64,000 bases of DNA. Origin: Bacteroides luti (lineage in GTDB: Bacteria; Bacteroidota; Bacteroidia; Bacteroidales; Bacteroidaceae). The DNA lies in contig NZ_FQTV01000012.1 of NCBI RefSeq assembly GCF_900128905.1, positions 1-64,000 of the forward strand, written 5' to 3'. Shown piece by piece: positions 15,516 to 26,506 of the stretch. Each line of letters opens with the position of its first letter. The first letter of the stretch is position 1. The position numbers and the translations under genes were made by a program. The notes below the pieces were generated by a model. The model made no database searches. It was given only the letters and a program-made list of their open reading frames with translations, and was not told the origin of the DNA.

Positions 15516-17759
15516 ATGATTAATACAAATACAACCAAAATCGAACAAGAAAACCCTGTTATTGCTCATATAAAAATAAACGATAATGGTGAATTTGAAA
15601 TTCAAAAATTAGAAGAACATTTAGTAGGTACTGCAGAAATGGCTAAACAATTCTGTAAAGAAATTGATTGTTATTTATGGGGCTATCAGATTGGTATATG
15701 GCATGATATAGGGAAATATAATTCTTATTTTCAGAAATATATTAAGATTAATTCAGGCTATTTGGGCGACGAAGGCACGATGAATAAAACCGACCATTCA
15801 TCGGCTGGAGCAATCTATGCGAAAGAATGTTTTCCACGAATCTGGCAACCGTTAGCTTATATTATTTCCGGCCATCATTCTGGTTTATTAAACTGGGACA
15901 ATGAATTAGGTATTACAGGCGATTTACAATCTAGATTACAAAAAAAAATATCAGAGGATATAAGATTATTTCTTCCAGATAAATATAAGCAACCACTAGA
16001 GTTACCAATACCATTTGATGGAAAATTGAATGAGAAAAATATTCATTTATGGATTAGAATGATGTTTTCATGTTTAGTTGACTCAGACTACCTGGATACT
16101 GAGAGATTTATGAATCCAGACTCTTTTTATAAGCGAGGACATTATTCTTCTATCCCAGACTTGAAAAATAAGTTTGATGCCTATATGGAAAGTCTAAATG
16201 AAAGTGCCTCAAATACGTTTGTTAATACTTTAAGATCCGAAATATATTCTGCGTGTATAAATTCAGGTGAAAGTGAAAATGGATTCTTTACACTCAATGT
16301 TCCTACAGGTGGTGGTAAAACATTATCTTCAATGGGATTTTCTCTTACTCATGCAGTCAAAAATAGTAAAAAACGAATTATTGTAGTTATTCCATATACA
16401 AGTATAATTGTTCAAACAGCTCAGACTTTTCGAGATATATTTGGAGAAGAAAATGTTATTGAACATCATAGTAATTTGGATAATGATAAATGTTCTGAAG
16501 AACATAAACTAGCCATTGAAAACTGGGATGCTCCAATTATTGTGACAACTAACGTGCAATTTTTTGAATCGTTATATTCAAACAGAACATCTAGTTGTAG
16601 AAAATTGCATAACATAGCAAACAGCATTATTATATTGGATGAAGCACAAATGCTTCCTCCTGAGTTTCTAAAACCCATACTTTCAGTTTTAAATGAACTC
16701 AATAAACTTTTTAATGTATCTGTCCTTTTTACGACAGCTACTCTTCCTGTTCTTACAGGAAAGATTGGAACTGGTGAATCTACTTTCAAAGGGATAGAAG
16801 CACCTGTAACTAACATAATAAAAAATACAGATGAAATTGAGACTTGTTTAAAACGGGTATCAATAGAAATGCCCGAGAAGAATGAACAGATATCATATAC
16901 TGATTTAGCTCAGGAGCTACTAAATTACAATCAAGTACTATGTATTTTAAATACACGTAATGAATGTAGTGAACTGTATAAAAGCATGCCAACTGATACG
17001 TTGCATCTGTCACGCATGATGTGCTCTGCACATATAATGAATACAATTAAAGAAATTAAAAGGAAATTGCTCAGTTCAGAGAGCGTTCGTGTTGTAAGTA
17101 CCCAACTTATAGAGGCTGGAGTAGATATGGATTTTCCTGTTGTTTACAGAGTATTTGCAGGATTAGATTCAATAGCCCAGGCTGCAGGTAGGTGTAACAG
17201 AGAAGGTAAACTAAATAAAGAGGGCAAACTCGGAAAGGTAAAAGTGTTCTATTCTGAGAAAGGAGCACCTCGGGGATTTATAAGGAAAGGTGCAGATGCA
17301 TTAACTGATCTGTTATATTCAAATCAATCAAATGATTATCTGTGCAGTAGCACGTTTAGAAATTATTTTATCAGGTTTTACAGCAAAATAAACTCTTTTG
17401 ATAAAGCTAAGATAAAAGAGAATCTTTGGGACGGGGCACGTGAAATGAAGTTCCAGTTTGCAACTGCAGCGAATAATTTCAGGTTAATTGACGATAACGG
17501 TAAAAGTATTATTGTTTGGTATAATGAAAGTACTGAGCTAATTGACTTGCTGAAAAGAAAAGGCCCGGAACCTTGGCTGATGAGAAAACTTCAGCAGTAT
17601 TCAGTAAGTGTACGTGATGCAGATTTTATTCAATTAGCAAAAGAAGGTCGCATAGAAAAGTATCATGATATATGGGTGCAGGCAGATCCTTATCTGTACA
17701 ATACAAAGGTAGGCTTGGTTCGTGATAATCATTGGTTAAATGAAATATTTATAGTATAG
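15516..17759 (+). CDS. cas3: Cas3 nuclease-helicase (type I-C)
   Basis: This 747-residue protein unwinds and degrades target DNA once Cascade has bound it. The HD nuclease domain comes first: H35 in EEHLVGTA, H63-D64 with K67 in WHDIGKY, D93-H94 and H120-H121. The SF2 helicase follows: Walker A VPTGGGKT (262-269), DEAQ (375-378), STQLIEAGVDMDFPVVYR and QAAGRCNREG (motif VI). Length is normal for a fused type I-C Cas3. It is the first gene of the cas operon and cas5c follows after 21 bp. All key motifs are intact, so the protein should be active. Confidence 0.96.
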   Translation: MINTNTTKIEQENPVIAHIKINDNGEFEIQKLEEHLVGTAEMAKQFCKEIDCYLWGYQIGIWHDIGKYNSYFQKYIKINSGYLGDEGTMNKTDHSSAGAIYAKECFPRIWQPLAYIISGHHSGLLNWDNELGITGDLQSRLQKKISEDIRLFLPDKYKQPLELPIPFDGKLNEKNIHLWIRMMFSCLVDSDYLDTERFMNPDSFYKRGHYSSIPDLKNKFDAYMESLNESASNTFVNTLRSEIYSACINSGESENGFFTLNVPTGGGKTLSSMGFSLTHAVKNSKKRIIVVIPYTSIIVQTAQTFRDIFGEENVIEHHSNLDNDKCSEEHKLAIENWDAPIIVTTNVQFFESLYSNRTSSCRKLHNIANSIIILDEAQMLPPEFLKPILSVLNELNKLFNVSVLFTTATLPVLTGKIGTGESTFKGIEAPVTNIIKNTDEIETCLKRVSIEMPEKNEQISYTDLAQELLNYNQVLCILNTRNECSELYKSMPTDTLHLSRMMCSAHIMNTIKEIKRKLLSSESVRVVSTQLIEAGVDMDFPVVYRVFAGLDSIAQAAGRCNREGKLNKEGKLGKVKVFYSEKGAPRGFIRKGADALTDLLYSNQSNDYLCSSTFRNYFIRFYSKINSFDKAKIKENLWDGAREMKFQFATAANNFRLIDDNGKSIIVWYNESTELIDLLKRKGPEPWLMRKLQQYSVSVRDADFIQLAKEGRIEKYHDIWVQADPYLYNTKVGLVRDNHWLNEIFIV

Positions 17760-17780
17760 TAACTTATTAAAATATAATAT

Positions 17781-18491
17781 ATGGAGTATTCTAATAAAGA
17801 GTTCTGTTTAGAAGTGTGGGGAGACTTTGCTTGTTTCACTCGTCCGGAAATGAAAGTTGAGCGTGTAAGTTATGATGTTATTACGCCATCATCTGCACGA
17901 TCTATTTTTGAAGCAATATTTTGGAAACCAGCAATTAAATGGCAGGTTACAAAAATAGAGGTTCTTAATCCTATTAACTGGATTTCAATACGAAGAAATG
18001 AAGTAGGAGCCCTTATGAGCGAACGTGTATCTAATCTTTTTATTGAAGACAACAGGCAACAGCGAGCAGGATTATTGCTTAAGGATGTAAGATATCGTAT
18101 TTATGCAGAACTGATATTTATCCGTCCAAGCGAAAGAATTCAAACAACCAGAATTGTTTCTGATGAGTTGGCTGATAAAGAAGAAAAAGAACTTTATAAG
18201 AAAGATGAAAATCCCGGTAAATACAATGCTATGTTTGAGCGAAGAGCCAGGAAGGGGCAATGTTTTAATCAACCTTATTTGGGCTGTAGAGAGTTCTCTG
18301 CAAACTTTAAACTTGTAGATACAGGCTTGTCTTTAAAAGAACCTATTAACGAATCAAGAGATATGGGATTTATGCTTTATGATATGGATTTTACCAATGT
18401 TAAAGATCCACAGGCTATGTTTTACAGAGCACAAATGCAGAATGGTGTTATAACTGTTCCACCAATAGATAGTGAGGAGGTACGCAAATGA
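17781..18491 (+). CDS. cas5c: Cas5c (Cas5d), crRNA-processing Cascade subunit
   Basis: This 236-residue protein is the type I-C Cas5 that, lacking a Cas6, cuts precursor crRNA in the repeat and stays bound to the 5' handle. The opening EVWGDFACFTRPEMKVERVSYDVITPSSARSIFEAIFWKP is typical, and QQRAGLLLKDVRYRIYAEL follows near residue 93. In Bacillus halodurans Cas5d the catalytic residues are Tyr46, Lys116 and His117; by eye the matching places here may read F47 and K101-D102, which needs a proper alignment. The stop overlaps the next start by 4 bp (ATGA), so it is translationally coupled to cas8c. Confidence 0.93.
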   Translation: MEYSNKEFCLEVWGDFACFTRPEMKVERVSYDVITPSSARSIFEAIFWKPAIKWQVTKIEVLNPINWISIRRNEVGALMSERVSNLFIEDNRQQRAGLLLKDVRYRIYAELIFIRPSERIQTTRIVSDELADKEEKELYKKDENPGKYNAMFERRARKGQCFNQPYLGCREFSANFKLVDTGLSLKEPINESRDMGFMLYDMDFTNVKDPQAMFYRAQMQNGVITVPPIDSEEVRK

Positions 18492-20230
18492 TTCTACAAG
18501 CTTTATATGAATATTATCAAAGAAAAGTTGCCGATGAAGAAAGCAATATAGCACCTCTAGGCTTTGAGAGAAAGGAAATACCTTTTATCATTGTTATTGA
18601 TGAAGAAGGCAATTTTATTAATTTAGAAGATACTCGTGAAGGTGAAAATAAGAGAGCTAAACGTTTTCTGGTTTTAAAAACAAAAGGTAGACCTGGATCA
18701 AACAGCTGGCAAACAGCAAATGTATTATGGGATCATTACGGCTATGTTTTAGCTCAATCAAAAGATGAAACAGATAAGGCTATTGATAGTGCAAAAAAGC
18801 AAAATGAAACTTTTATTAAAGAAGTAAAGAATATCTCGAACAAGTTTTCTGATAATAAAAGTTTTAAAGCGATATTGAAGTTTTATGAAAATCCTGACTC
18901 TTTAGAGCTCGTAAAGGCTCATGAACTTTTTGCTGATTGTATAAAAATAGCAGGATGTAATATATCTTTCAGGATTATTTCGGAAACAGAGCTTGTAGCA
19001 GAAAATGAGGATCTTAAAAAACTTGTAACAGATTCTATAAAAGAAGATGAGGAAAATGTTTCAAAAGGAGTTTGTCTTATAACAGGCGAAAATACTTTAA
19101 TAGCTAAACTACATACAGCAACCGCCATACCCGGAGGTAAAAGTGGAGCTAAGCTTGTTGGCTTTCAAAAAAAATCAGGATATGATTCCTATTACAAGGA
19201 ACAAGGAATGAATGCGCCTGTTTCACTAGAGGCCGAAGATGCTTATACAACAGCTTTAAATACGCTTTTAGGAAAAGATTCTCAAAACAAAATGAGACTT
19301 AACGATATGACGATTCTGTTTTGGGCAGAGAAGGATAATGATATGGAGCATTATTTCAATGCTTTTTTTATTTCTCCACCAAAAGACGATCCTGATAAAA
19401 ATATTCGGGAAATTAGGTCTTTTATGGAATCTATATATACAGGAAAATTAAATCTCGATGGTAGTACACGATTCTATATATTAGGACTTGCTCCTAATGC
19501 AGCACGTATTTCCATTCGTTTCTGGAAAGTAGGAAAGGTTAGTGATTTAGCTGGCAATATAGTTACCCATTTCAACGACTTAATGATAATTAGAAATAAA
19601 AATGATGAGAGAGAATTCTTCTCTTTATTTAATTTGCTTACGCAGGTGGCTGCTCAATTTAAAATGGATAATTTGCCTCCTAATCTGGTTAGTTCAGTTA
19701 TGGTAAGTATTATAAATGGAACCCCATACCCATCTACATTACAACAGCAGTGTATTTGTAGAATACGGGCTGAACAGGAAGTTGGTTATATACGAGCTGC
19801 TATATTAAAAGCTTATATTAACAGAAAAACAAGATTTAATAAGAATATAAATGAAAAAGAAATCACTATGGCACTAGACATTGAAAACAAGAATCAAGGC
19901 TATTTGTGTGGGCGTCTTTTCGCTATCCTTGAAAAAATTCAGGAAGATGCACAACCTGGTATTAACACAACCATAAAAGACCGTTTCTATGGTGCAGCAT
20001 CAAGTACACCGGTGGCTGTTTTTAGCAGACTACTTAATATGAGTAATCATCACCTGGAAAAACTAAATTCAGGTAAAAAAATCTATTACGAAAAAATAAT
20101 TCAGGGAATAATGGCGGGAATTAGTAGTGATGGTTTGCCTACTAATCTTTCTCTCGACGATCAATCTCGTTTTGCTATTGGATATTATCACCAAAGGCAA
20201 GATTTGTTTATCAGTAAAAAAGAAAATTAA
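18488..20230 (+). CDS. cas8c: Cas8c (Csd1), large Cascade subunit
   Basis: This 580-residue large subunit of type I-C Cascade recognises the protospacer-adjacent motif and helps recruit Cas3. It opens [31 protein letters not shown] and contains the Csd1-typical segments [22 protein letters not shown] and [40 protein letters not shown]. The call rests on the Csd1 pattern and on position between cas5c and cas7c. It overlaps cas5c by 4 bp. Length is normal and no frameshift is seen. Confidence 0.94.
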
Positions 20231-20258
20231 TTTATTAAATATGGAAAGGAACAATATT

Positions 20259-21122
20259 ATGTCAGACATTATTAAAAATCGCTACGACTTTATACTACTA
20301 TTTGATGTACAGGATGGGAATCCGAATGGAGATCCCGATGCAGGTAATTTACCAAGAGTTGATGCAGAAACAGGCATGGGGCTTGTAACAGACGTTTGTT
20401 TAAAGAGAAAGGTTCGCAATTATGTTCAAATAAAAAATGAGAATAAAAAACCTTATGATATTTTTATAAAAGAAAAAGCAATATTAAATAACTTAATAAA
20501 AGAAGCTACAGAGCAGGAAATAAACAAAGGCAAGGAAAAAGGAGATAAAACCGAAAGCGCAAGAAAGTGGATGTGTGAAAACTATTATGATGTAAGAACA
20601 TTTGGTGCTGTTATGACTACCGGAGAAAATGCTGGTCAAGTACGCGGCCCAATACAATTTACTTTTGCTCGCTCAATTGATCCAATTATTGCATTGGAAC
20701 ACAGCATTACACGTATGGCTGTTGCAACCGAAAAGGAAGCCGAGGCTCAAAATGGTGATAACCGAACTATGGGACGTAAAAGTACAGTACCTTATGGCTT
20801 ATATTGTACTCATGGATTTATTTCTGCTCACTTAGCAAATCAAACAGGGTTTAATGAAAATGACTTGGATCTGTTTTGGGAAGCGTTAAAGAATATGTTT
20901 GATCAAGATCACTCTGCTGCCAGAGGAATGATGAGTACAAGAAAGCTAGTTGTGTTTAAACATAATACAGCTCTAGGAAATGCTCCAGCTCATCAGCTTT
21001 TTGATTTAGTAAAAGTGGAACGCAATGATAAAACTAAATCATCGCGTGCATTCAGCGATTATTCAGTTAAAATTGATCGTTCAAAATTACCTGAAGGGGT
21101 TGAACTAATAGAAATGGTGTAA
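20259..21122 (+). CDS. cas7c: Cas7c (Csd2), crRNA-binding backbone subunit
   Basis: This 287-residue subunit polymerises along the crRNA spacer to form the Cascade backbone. The opening [30 protein letters not shown] is nearly diagnostic of Csd2, and [30 protein letters not shown] follows near the C-terminus. I chose the ATG at 20259 because an AGGAA motif lies about 8 bp upstream and family members start here; an in-frame ATG at 20241 would add six residues. It follows cas8c by 28 bp and precedes cas4 by 13 bp. Confidence 0.95.
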
Positions 21123-21135
21123 TAAATATCTGTTT

Positions 21136-21804
21136 ATGATAGAATATGATGATGAAGACCTATTGATGCTTTCAGGAATACAGCACATAGCCTTTTGCGA
21201 AAGACAATGGGCCTTCATCCATTTGGAACAACAATGGGCAGAAAATAGATTAACCATAGAAGGACAATTCTTACATGAAAAAGTAGATGATCCTTTATAC
21301 ATGAACCTTAGTAGAGGTGCTGTGATTTTACGGTCGGTCTCTATTTCATCACGGATATTGGGACTTTATGGCTTTTCTGATGCGATTGAACTTTTACCAT
21401 CTAAAACACAAACTAATAGCATTACATGTAAAAAATATCCGGGATATTGGTTACCTGTTCCAATTGAATATAAACATGGAAAGCCAAAGATGGATTCTAT
21501 TGATGAAGTTCAGTTATGTGCACAAGCAATTTGTCTGGAAGAAATGTATTCAATTTCTATTGAAAAAGGATATTTATATTATGGTGAAATACGTCATAGA
21601 ACAGAGGTGCAATTCACCAAAGAATTAAGAGAGTTAACCTTCAGATTATCAGATAGAATGCACGAATTATACAAAAATAATATTACGCCACCACCTCATT
21701 ACGAAAAGAAATGTAAGGCTTGCTCATTACATGATATTTGTATGCCGGAGACTTTCTCAAAAAAAAGAAGTGTGAATTCATATTTGAAAGAAATATTAGA
21801 ATAA
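21136..21804 (+). CDS. cas4: Cas4 exonuclease for spacer acquisition
   Basis: This 222-residue RecB-like nuclease trims pre-spacers and selects those with the right adjacent motif. One iron-sulphur Cys (C21 in AFCERQW) and three near the C-terminus (C193, C196, C202 in KCKACSLHDIC) give the four-Cys cluster of Cas4. The nuclease core includes VPIEYKHGKPK and QLCAQAICLEEMY. It is adjacent to cas1 (3-bp gap), as in other type I-C loci, where Cas4 and Cas1 work as a complex. Confidence 0.95.
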   Translation: MIEYDDEDLLMLSGIQHIAFCERQWAFIHLEQQWAENRLTIEGQFLHEKVDDPLYMNLSRGAVILRSVSISSRILGLYGFSDAIELLPSKTQTNSITCKKYPGYWLPVPIEYKHGKPKMDSIDEVQLCAQAICLEEMYSISIEKGYLYYGEIRHRTEVQFTKELRELTFRLSDRMHELYKNNITPPPHYEKKCKACSLHDICMPETFSKKRSVNSYLKEILE

Positions 21805-21806
21805 TA

Positions 21807-22832
21807 ATGCGGAAACTATTAAATACCTTATATGTTACAACTCCCGATTCCTTCTTGTCAAAAGAAGGCGATAATGTAGTTGTGATGGTGAAAGGAACAG
21901 AAAAATTTCGAATTCCAATTTATAACATCGAAGGAATTGTGAGTTTTGGATATACAGGAGCAAGCCCTGCTCTTATGAAAATGTGTGCAGATAAAAATAT
22001 TGGATTATGTTTCCTTACTGAGCATGGTGAATTTTTAGGAAGAGTATCTGGGCCAATAAAAGGTAATGTACTTCTTAGAAGACAACAATATAGAATAGCA
22101 GATGAAAAAGAGGCTTCTTTGAATCTGAGTCGCATTTTTATTGCTGGTAAGATAGCAAATTGTCGAAACGTTGTACAAAGATCGATTCGTGATCATGGAG
22201 ATGAATTAAATATTCTTGATGCTGCTTCTAAAAATTTACTTTTAAAAAGTAGACAGTCATTTAATGCTATAGACTCAAATCAGTTAAGAGGCATAGAAGG
22301 AGAAGCTGCAACTTCATATTTCGGAGTATTCAATCAATTGATAAAAAACAGTGACTCTAGTTTTTATTTTGGAGGACGAACCCGTCGTCCTCCAAAAGAT
22401 AATGTAAATGCATTATTATCATTTATATATATGCTTCTTGCCCATGAAGTACAATCAGCATTAGAATCAGTAGGGTTGGATCCTTATGTAGGTTTTTTGC
22501 ATACAGATAGACCGGGAAGAGCAAGCCTGGCACTAGATATTATGGAAGAGTTCAGACCATATCTTGCAGATAGGCTTGTGCTTTCGCTAATTAACAGAAG
22601 ACAAGTTTCAGGAAAAGGATTTGTTCAACAAGGTGAAAAAGGCATTATAATGACGGATGAAACAAAAAAAGAGATACTTTTGACGTGGCAAAAACGCAAA
22701 AAGGAAAGTATACAGCATCCTTTTTTAGGTGAAACAGTAAATATTGGTTTGTTACCATATATTCAAGCAATGCTTCTTGCAAGGTATATTCGTGGAGATA
22801 TTGATAATTATCCGGTCTTTGTAATGAAATAG
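21807..22832 (+). CDS. cas1: Cas1 integrase (type I-C)
   Basis: This 341-residue integrase inserts new spacers at the leader end of the array together with Cas2. It opens MRKLLNTLYVTTPDSFLSKEGDNVVV. Conserved metal ligands are visible in GIEGEAATSYF (E164/E166), HTDRPGRASLALD (H232, D244) and the following EEFRPYLADR. I placed the start at the ATG at 21807, 3 bp after the cas4 stop, because residues encoded upstream belong to the cas4 overlap. No damage is seen. Confidence 0.96.
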   Translation: MRKLLNTLYVTTPDSFLSKEGDNVVVMVKGTEKFRIPIYNIEGIVSFGYTGASPALMKMCADKNIGLCFLTEHGEFLGRVSGPIKGNVLLRRQQYRIADEKEASLNLSRIFIAGKIANCRNVVQRSIRDHGDELNILDAASKNLLLKSRQSFNAIDSNQLRGIEGEAATSYFGVFNQLIKNSDSSFYFGGRTRRPPKDNVNALLSFIYMLLAHEVQSALESVGLDPYVGFLHTDRPGRASLALDIMEEFRPYLADRLVLSLINRRQVSGKGFVQQGEKGIIMTDETKKEILLTWQKRKKESIQHPFLGETVNIGLLPYIQAMLLARYIRGDIDNYPVFVMK

Positions 22833-22834
22833 TT

Positions 22835-23125
22835 ATGATGGTTTTAATAACATACGATGTGGGTACTGATTCTCCAGAAGGCAAGAAAAGGTTAAGAAAG
22901 GTAGCAAAACAGTGTGTTAATTATGGACAACGTGTACAAAATTCTGTTTTTGAATGTCTACTCGACCCTGCACAGTTTTCGGTTCTAAAACATAAGCTTG
23001 ATAAGATTATAGATAAAGAGAAAGATAGCATTCGTTTTTATTTTTTAGGAAATAAATGGGAAAAGCATATAGAATATATTGGAAAACTTACTTCATTTAA
23101 TATGGAAGATGAATTAATAATATGA
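22835..23125 (+). CDS. cas2: Cas2, spacer-acquisition partner of Cas1
   Basis: This 96-residue protein dimerises between Cas1 dimers and holds the pre-spacer duplex. MMVLITYDVGTDSPEGKKRLRKVAKQ has the conserved Asp (D8) after the first strand, and the ferredoxin-like fold continues to IRFYFLGNKW. It starts 2 bp after cas1 and is the last gene before the leader. A start at 22838 would remove one Met. Length is normal. Confidence 0.96.
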   Translation: MMVLITYDVGTDSPEGKKRLRKVAKQCVNYGQRVQNSVFECLLDPAQFSVLKHKLDKIIDKEKDSIRFYFLGNKWEKHIEYIGKLTSFNMEDELII

Positions 23126-23293: not shown

Positions 23294-26200
23294 GTCGCAC
23301 CTTGTACGGGTGCGTGGATTGAAACTCTTATGCCAACTTTAGAAACTACATAAATCATGGTCGCACCTTGTACGGGTGCGTGGATTGAAACCAATTGACT
23401 ATAAAATATCCAGTACCAGCTATTGTGTCGCACCTTGTACGGGTGCGTGGATTGAAACCTTTTATCGGATTTGTTTATATGAGCCTATATCTGTCGCACC
23501 TTGTACGGGTGCGTGGATTGAAACATGGAGTTACAGCAAGGTAACTTCTTTCGCTCGAAGTCGCACCTTGTACGGGTGCGTGGATTGAAACAGCAAAAGT
23601 ATAACCTGGTTTAGTCGATGCTTTCGTCGCACCTTGTACGGGTGCGTGGATTGAAACTTAAGCCCAGTTACGATATTGGCGCCTACAGAAGTCGCACCTT
23701 GTACGGGTGCGTGGATTGAAACATAAAACCATTGGTAATCCCGAAAAGTCTTTCTTTGTCGCACCTTGTACGGGTGCGTGGATTGAAACTTATCAAGTAC
23801 TATTATGCAAGTTGCAACTGATGGTCGCACCTTGTACGGGTGCGTGGATTGAAACAAAGTATCGAATACGGCCTTTTCTTCATCCGTCCGTCGCACCTTG
23901 TACGGGTGCGTGGATTGAAACCCAAAATCAACGCCAAGAAGTGCTTATACACAGCGTCGCACCTTGTACGGGTGCGTGGATTGAAACACCTTAGCTTCGA
24001 ATTTGGTAAACTCTTCTATTCGTCGCACCTTGTACGGGTGCGTGGATTGAAACTTAATACTTTTGCGTTATCTTCACCAAAAGCAATGTCGCACCTTGTA
24101 CGGGTGCGTGGATTGAAACTTATCGATACGGTTCAGCGTCTCACGGAACTCCTCGTCGCACCTTGTACGGGTGCGTGGATTGAAACCTGATTCTAAACCT
24201 ATCTTGTAAAGATCACAAAAGCGTCGCACCTTGTACGGGTGCGTGGATTGAAACTTTTTGCCGTTCCAAATGGCGGCAGCCGTAACAGTCGCACCTTGTA
24301 CGGGTGCGTGGATTGAAACAAAAGCTGAAAAGGAAATGAGACACAGAACGATTGTCGCACCTTGTACGGGTGCGTGGATTGAAACATGATTAATTTAGCA
24401 TAAACGCATTCAATATTATGTCGCACCTTGTACGGGTGCGTGGATTGAAACTCAATAAACCAAACTTCATCAACCCTAACTCCTGGTCGCACCTTGTACG
24501 GGTGCGTGGATTGAAACTCTAAGGCCTGAATTATCTATCCCGGTAGCGAAAGTCGCACCTTGTACGGGTGCGTGGATTGAAACTGTATTGGCAATTGAGT
24601 GAAGTAAAAACGGAAAGTCGCACCTTGTACGGGTGCGTGGATTGAAACATTTACTACCTTTTTAGCTCAATGTATTGCGTGTGTCGCACCTTGTACGGGT
24701 GCGTGGATTGAAACAAATAAGCAAGCTACGCCCATACAGATAGCAGCAGTCGCACCTTGTACGGGTGCGTGGATTGAAACTATTTTCTCCTGGCAAACTG
24801 CTATGATAGTTGGTATGTCGCACCTTGTACGGGTGCGTGGATTGAAACTAGCTGAAATGGATAAAGAAAAAAAAGAAAACGCTAAGTCGCACCTTGTACG
24901 GGTGCGTGGATTGAAACATAAATAGTTTTAAGTCCAGCGTTTACACTATCGTCGCACCTTGTACGGGTGCGTGGATTGAAACTTGGATGAAACGCTATTG
25001 AGGTGCACCTCAATAGTCGCACCTTGTACGGGTGCGTGGATTGAAACCCGGATTTAGAACTAATGGGAAGGATGCCTATATAGGTCGCACCTTGTACGGG
25101 TGCGTGGATTGAAACACGTATATATCGTAATACTGAGGAAGAGCGTTTCCGTCGCACCTTGTACGGGTGCGTGGATTGAAACTGTGTTTCGTCATCCGTA
25201 GTATTAGATGCGTTATGTCGCACCTTGTACGGGTGCGTGGATTGAAACAATACATGGCCGTGGGGCAGAGTATGGAAAGCTTAAGTCGCACCTTGTACGG
25301 GTGCGTGGATTGAAACACTCCGTAATAGTAGAAGATGGCATAAGTTACAGTCGCACCTTGTACGGGTGCGTGGATTGAAACACCAACGATTTAACTTATA
25401 CATTTTCAACAAAAGTCGCACCTTGTACGGGTGCGTGGATTGAAACTGCACTCGTATAATCACCCGTAAAGCCGGTATTGTCGCACCTTGTACGGGTGCG
25501 TGGATTGAAACATGTTCACAGGATGGCATCCACACTGCAGATGCGTCGCACCTTGTACGGGTGCGTGGATTGAAACAAGACCGATCTTATACAGATCGCA
25601 GAAGTCCATGCGTCGCACCTTGTACGGGTGCGTGGATTGAAACTCCATTAAGGTGCGCGTAATAAAATGTATAAGTAGTCGCACCTTGTACGGGTGCGTG
25701 GATTGAAACATCCAGAGCTGGAATGAATCCTCACGTTCGCCAAAGTCGCACCTTGTACGGGTGCGTGGATTGAAACCTCACCTGGCAACCGCAGATTAAG
25801 CCGGTTACTTAGTCGCACCTTGTACGGGTGCGTGGATTGAAACGCAGAGTGATGTTCGACTTTATGAACAAGCTCATTGTCGCACCTTATACGGGTGCGT
25901 GGATTGAAACAAAACAGCACGTGAGTTATTCACAGGGTCATAGTGTCGCACCTTATACGGGTGCGTGGATTGAAACTTTACTCTTACTTATGACAGTGAG
26001 CATATACCTAGTCGCATTCTTTATGGGTGTGTGAATTGAAACTCTGATCGCCAGTGGTTACTTGCTTTTAGCGATTGTCGCACCCCTCGTGAGTGCGTGA
26101 ATTGAAACCTTGGTCGGAATGGGGAGGCGATAGCCCTCTTTAGTCGCACCCTTTACGGGTGTGTGGATTGAAACGCGTTTGCATTTGAGGCAACGTTGTT

Positions 26201-26506
26201 CGAATTCAGTCGCATCCTTTACGGGTGCGTGAATTGAAACGCAGTTAAAGCTTCTCAGATTATTGCTGATACTGGTCGTACCCCTTGCTGGTACGTGAAT
26301 TGAAACAAAATGACTGATTGCTTTGCAACAAAGTTAATTAGTCGTACCCTTTACGGGTGTGTGAATTGAAACTTGCAAGAAAGTAAAGCTGTACATAGCC
26401 ATACCAGAGTCGCACTTTATACAGGTGCGTGGATTGAAACAATGAGCAGGGAGAACAAACGCTTCCTCTTGATAGTCGTACTCTTTACGGGTGCATGAAT
26501 TGAAAC
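23294..26506 (+). CRISPR. type I-C CRISPR array, 49 repeats and 48 spacers
   Basis: Repeats are 32 bp, beginning GTCGCACC and ending GTGGATTGAAAC, with a stem of bases 3-9 with 15-21. I counted 49 repeats with start-to-start distances of 65-69 bp, so spacers are 33-37 bp. Repeats 1-39 agree with the consensus, 40 and 41 have one change (G11A), and 42-49 (from 26011) are divergent. Decay at the far end and cas2 at the near end place the leader at 23126-23293. The leader-proximal block is clean, so acquisition was recently active. Long open frames on both strands here are only repeat translations. Confidence 0.99.

Follow-up and report, generated by a model that had tools for sequence, protein, structure and literature searches.

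Two spacers of the CRISPR array of Bacteroides luti, situated 21 positions apart, encode the same peptide, which raises the question of what the system had encountered to store one site twice. The array lies within the window analysed here, a 64,000-nucleotide stretch of contig NZ_FQTV01000012.1, downstream of a type I-C cas operon (cas3, cas5c, cas8c/csd1, cas7/csd2, cas4, cas1c and cas2; 15516..23125, + strand) that was recognized with profile models. The type I-C models of Cas5c, Cas8c, Cas7 (Csd2) and Cas1c exceeded their cut-offs, and Cas3, Cas4 and Cas2 were also matched by their models. The array itself (23294..26506, + strand) is composed of 32-nt repeats, GTCGCACCTTGTACGGGTGCGTGGATTGAAAC, and spacers of 33-37 nt. 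Beside the cas operon its repeats are perfect, whereas those of the far end, at 26.0-26.5 kb, are degenerate; hence the 23.3 kb end, on the side of the leader and operon, was taken to be the younger. In its gene content (cas3-cas5c-cas8c-cas7-cas4-cas1-cas2) and its TTC PAM the system is the same as other type I-C systems, and nothing unusual was seen; TTC is the commonest, canonical type I-C PAM (PMC8482600), and was present 5' of the protospacer at the sites matched by spacers 14, 34, 35 and 44. Separately, spacer 26 (24983-25015) was found to hold a perfect 20-nt palindrome, TATTGAGGTGCACCTCAATA.

When their reverse complements are read from the third base, spacer 14 (24187..24222, - strand) encodes FCDLYKIGLES and spacer 35 (25577..25611, - strand) encodes MDFCDLYKIGL. 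The nine common codons, FCDLYKIGL, occupy 24194..24220 in the former and 25577..25603 in the latter, both on the - strand. The original prediction, that the two spacers encode nine identical residues with exclusively synonymous differences, was exact in its coordinates and was borne out; its count of 7-8 differing bases resolves to 7 of 27, the remaining 20 being identical. When 7 bases of the 27-mer were changed at random 400,000 times, the peptide never survived intact. Peptides of 4-5 residues are common to spacers by chance in this array, and across 300 shuffled arrays the longest of the tested lengths to occur was 7 residues, reached once, with none of 8; a common peptide of nine residues is therefore far beyond chance. 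The only other common peptides of more than 5 residues, considering all spacers in six frames, derived from unsplit degenerate repeat units in two entries.

When 399 genomes of the host family were searched by pattern, the peptide appeared, apart from the host's own two spacers, only in a congener (G149). Spacer 14 matched this genome at 36/36 positions, inside an open radical-SAM gene of 269 aa and in the predicted frame, and the GAA that follows the protospacer on the coding strand is TTC on the spacer strand, so that the expected PAM was indeed present beside a perfect site. The gene resides in a Mu-like prophage encoding a MuA-type transposase (phrog_310, 1.9e-34), a MuB-type ATPase transposition protein (phrog_296, 2.3e-33), a Mu portal (Portal_Mu, 1.4e-82) and DUF3164. 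By these transposition and portal genes it can be likened to hankyphage, a Mu-like transposable phage of Bacteroides (PMC12135933, PMC6199706); the term 'Radical SAM' is absent from the main text of one hankyphage paper (PMC12135933). Matches were judged against a shuffled-spacer null, in which the maximum identity was 0.735 in 1,440 tests; spacers 14, 34 and 35 attained 1.00, 0.94 and 0.83, respectively. A candidate match of spacer 10 to G149 (25/34, PAM TTT) equalled the null maximum and was dropped.

No exact donor of spacer 35 turned up among viral contigs, genome contigs or 159 genomes of the genus. A protein search of the latter showed that six genomes hold relatives of the radical-SAM gene, the copy in G518 being the closest after that of G149 (75% identical). 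Spacer 35 matched the G518 gene at 29/35 positions; the six differing bases include changes to two amino acids (GS for DF). The TTC in this homologue arises from the Glu (GAA) codon, at the place where such a codon had been predicted. Spacer 34 (25512..25544, + strand), which adjoins spacer 35 and encodes MFTGWHPHCRC, matched a minor-head gene of the same G518 prophage at 31/33 positions with a TTC PAM, all 11 residues being identical, and this site is 2.3 kb from the radical-SAM site. Amongst the 159 genus genomes, only G518 and the host itself contain spacer 34 within 3 mismatches.

Two further observations concern spacers 34 and 44. The spacer 34 pattern FTGWHPHCRC was present in 65 viral contigs (IMG/VR loci L079-L143), and when the prophage was counted, 64 sites had TTC and 2 had TTT directly before the protospacer register; TTC being almost universal there, many phages already present type I-C systems with a usable target at this conserved position of the head gene. 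Spacer 44 (26175..26208, - strand) matched the template repeat of a diversity-generating retroelement (DGR) in the G518 prophage at 26/34 positions with TTC, a weaker match that barely exceeds the null maximum. The corresponding identity to the variable repeat was 22/34 (template and variable repeats, L073:14726-14839 and L073:14422-14535), and all 14 template-to-variable differences in this retroelement fall at A positions of the template.

The original prediction had also anticipated that a single protein family would contain the motif. Scanning the back-translated peptide against viral contigs gave 44 matches, of which 40 were in one radical-SAM family, in agreement with that expectation; the other four (L003, L011, L021 and L041) lay in unrelated or very short frames and were discarded as chance matches. 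The family proteins are mostly about 270-290 aa and are characterized by FKTFASIEPIID...FCDLYKIGLxSGKKY (a signature also given as SIEPIID...FCDLYKIGLxSG) together with the cluster motif CxxxCxxC. The latter reads GCSNGCTYCY in G149, and its cysteines, at alignment columns 30, 34 and 37, are at least 90% conserved among 31 sequences. The Pfam Radical_SAM profile matched with E 9e-5 and 23.1 bits, below its curated cut-off of 29.5, and DUF5131 (PF07505) scored 22.3 bits, below its gathering cut-off of 28.9; by these profile comparisons the family appears related to DUF5131 without being a member. The profile search also matched it to phrog_13321. A structure model built from 31 members (mean pLDDT 92) adopts a radical-SAM-like TIM-type barrel, its best solved structural match being the radical-SAM enzyme SuiB (E 1.6e-5); HydE and QueE also ranked near the top. 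The FCDLYKIGL motif includes the strand at residues 206-211 of the modelled barrel and is nearly invariant in the alignment, the members of which were selected by that same motif; closer relatives retrieved by whole-protein search retain (D/E)L(Y/F)KIG, with changes around it.

Searches for other possible sources of the two spacers were negative. The peptide alone had no match in named phages, and no gene copy was detectable in the plasmids searched. A search of the host's own genome yielded no copy of the radical-SAM gene; the spacers thus do not appear to be self-targeting, and that candidate explanation was dropped. The gp34 protein of Parabacteroides phage PDS1 (phrog_13321; near DUF5131) has about 46% full-length identity to a viral family member, and in PDS1 the gene lies between those for SSB and ASCH proteins. 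Across PDS1-like phages it is placed among replication and recombination genes, but the motif there reads SYPFVDLFKIGLQSG, unlike that of the spacer-targeted family; although the gene is present, these phages were rejected as donors owing to the diverged motif.

The original prediction attributed the spacer pair to the same conserved site of two diverged genes, most likely in related phages. The first part of this was upheld, and the relatedness of the phages was not. The G518 prophage differs from that of G149 in its terminase family, portal and head set, and it has a reverse transcriptase with a template and variable repeat pair (DGR). In a protein comparison of the two prophage regions, strong common genes were limited to the radical-SAM gene (74%) and one small gene (84%), with three further matches being weak (24-39% identity). 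'Related phages' was accordingly replaced by unlike phages sharing a gene. As these prophages strongly share only two genes, and PDS1-like phages hold the radical-SAM gene among replication and recombination genes, we interpret the radical-SAM gene as accessory and as passing between Bacteroidota phages that are otherwise unlike. In G518 (G518:C4:579740-580549; L072/L073) the radical-SAM gene is flanked by the minor-head and major-head genes and runs opposite to both, an arrangement that an inserted accessory gene would be expected to show.

Taken together, it is very probable that one type I-C system acquired the two spacers independently, each from a different, diverged copy of a single phage gene, the radical-SAM accessory gene. 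Both would have been taken up at TTC PAMs beside the FCDLYKIGLE codons, which specify a strongly conserved strand of the enzyme barrel; constraint at the protein level would have held the peptide constant whilst the DNA diverged at silent positions. As the DNA would have diverged in this way with the peptide remaining identical, a crRNA from one gene copy would mismatch the other. The G149 site, examined over the register of spacer 35, retains TTC and pairs at 22/35 positions; with 13 mismatches, PAM-proximal positions 1, 3 and 7 among them, spacer 35 is predicted to be unlikely to clear a G149-type phage. Given such silent divergence, a second spacer would have been of use. Judged by how far each lies from the leader and cas operon, spacer 35 was probably acquired before spacer 14; acquisition at different times, as had been proposed, fits the separation of the two spacers when judged from array order.

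Independence of the two acquisitions is the point at which another reading competes. Under primed adaptation, a later phage of the G149 type would have been partly matched by spacer 35, the older of the two, which then directed the uptake of spacer 14 at the same codons. The TTC retained by the G149 site in the spacer 35 register, with its 22/35 match, is consistent with this, as are reports from type I systems of priming despite 13 mutations and of uptake near an existing protospacer (PMC6990116). Moreover, with random placement within this gene only 3.4% of PAM pairs overlap by at least 27 bases. Against these points stand the three PAM-proximal mismatches, the 21 positions between the spacers and the fact that spacer 14 is not accompanied by a group of further spacers matching G149, and a single case cannot separate priming from coincidence at a common gene. 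We consider priming unlikely. Were it true, an accessory gene common to unlike phages would let the memory of one phage prime immunity to an unrelated one.

Duplication of one spacer within the array followed by drift would account for the 20/27 identity across the common codons, but was refuted: spacer 14 has a perfect external protospacer in a real prophage gene, and wholly silent differences in the common codons are not expected of array drift. In addition, the PAM-side ends of spacers 14 and 35 fall 7 bases apart along the gene, and a separate TTC accompanies each register in a homologous gene; the probability left to duplication is negligible. Chance likeness of unrelated spacers can be dismissed with near certainty, for although peptides of 4-5 residues do recur by chance in this array, none of 8 was common in the 300 shuffles and both spacers map to one gene family with TTC PAMs.

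Independent acquisition from two copies of one gene invokes no new mechanism, since phage genes targeted by CRISPR had already been seen to carry silent changes, and the pair is a clear new example of that phenomenon. Such changes were reported in 2009 for a CRISPR-targeted phage lysozyme/lysin gene in Yellowstone Synechococcus mats (PMC2612747). That case is alike in that the targeted phage gene was conserved at the protein level, with viral variants falling to about 70% protospacer DNA identity through silent or conservative changes. It is unlike the present one in that a single spacer was compared with a pool of viral reads, whereas in the present array the same codons are stored in two synonymous versions, one per spacer, and each spacer can be linked to a homologous gene in a prophage. 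A limited keyword search of open-licence literature found no description of a single array in which two spacers target the same codons.

Two previously anonymous spacers thus have a named target, one that includes a perfect protospacer with its PAM, and they offer a clear case from nature of a CRISPR target that diverged silently with the encoded peptide held fixed. On our reading of the radical-SAM gene, the array of B. luti twice sampled an accessory gene moving between unlike phages, and spacer matches to such genes therefore identify a gene family, not one phage lineage.
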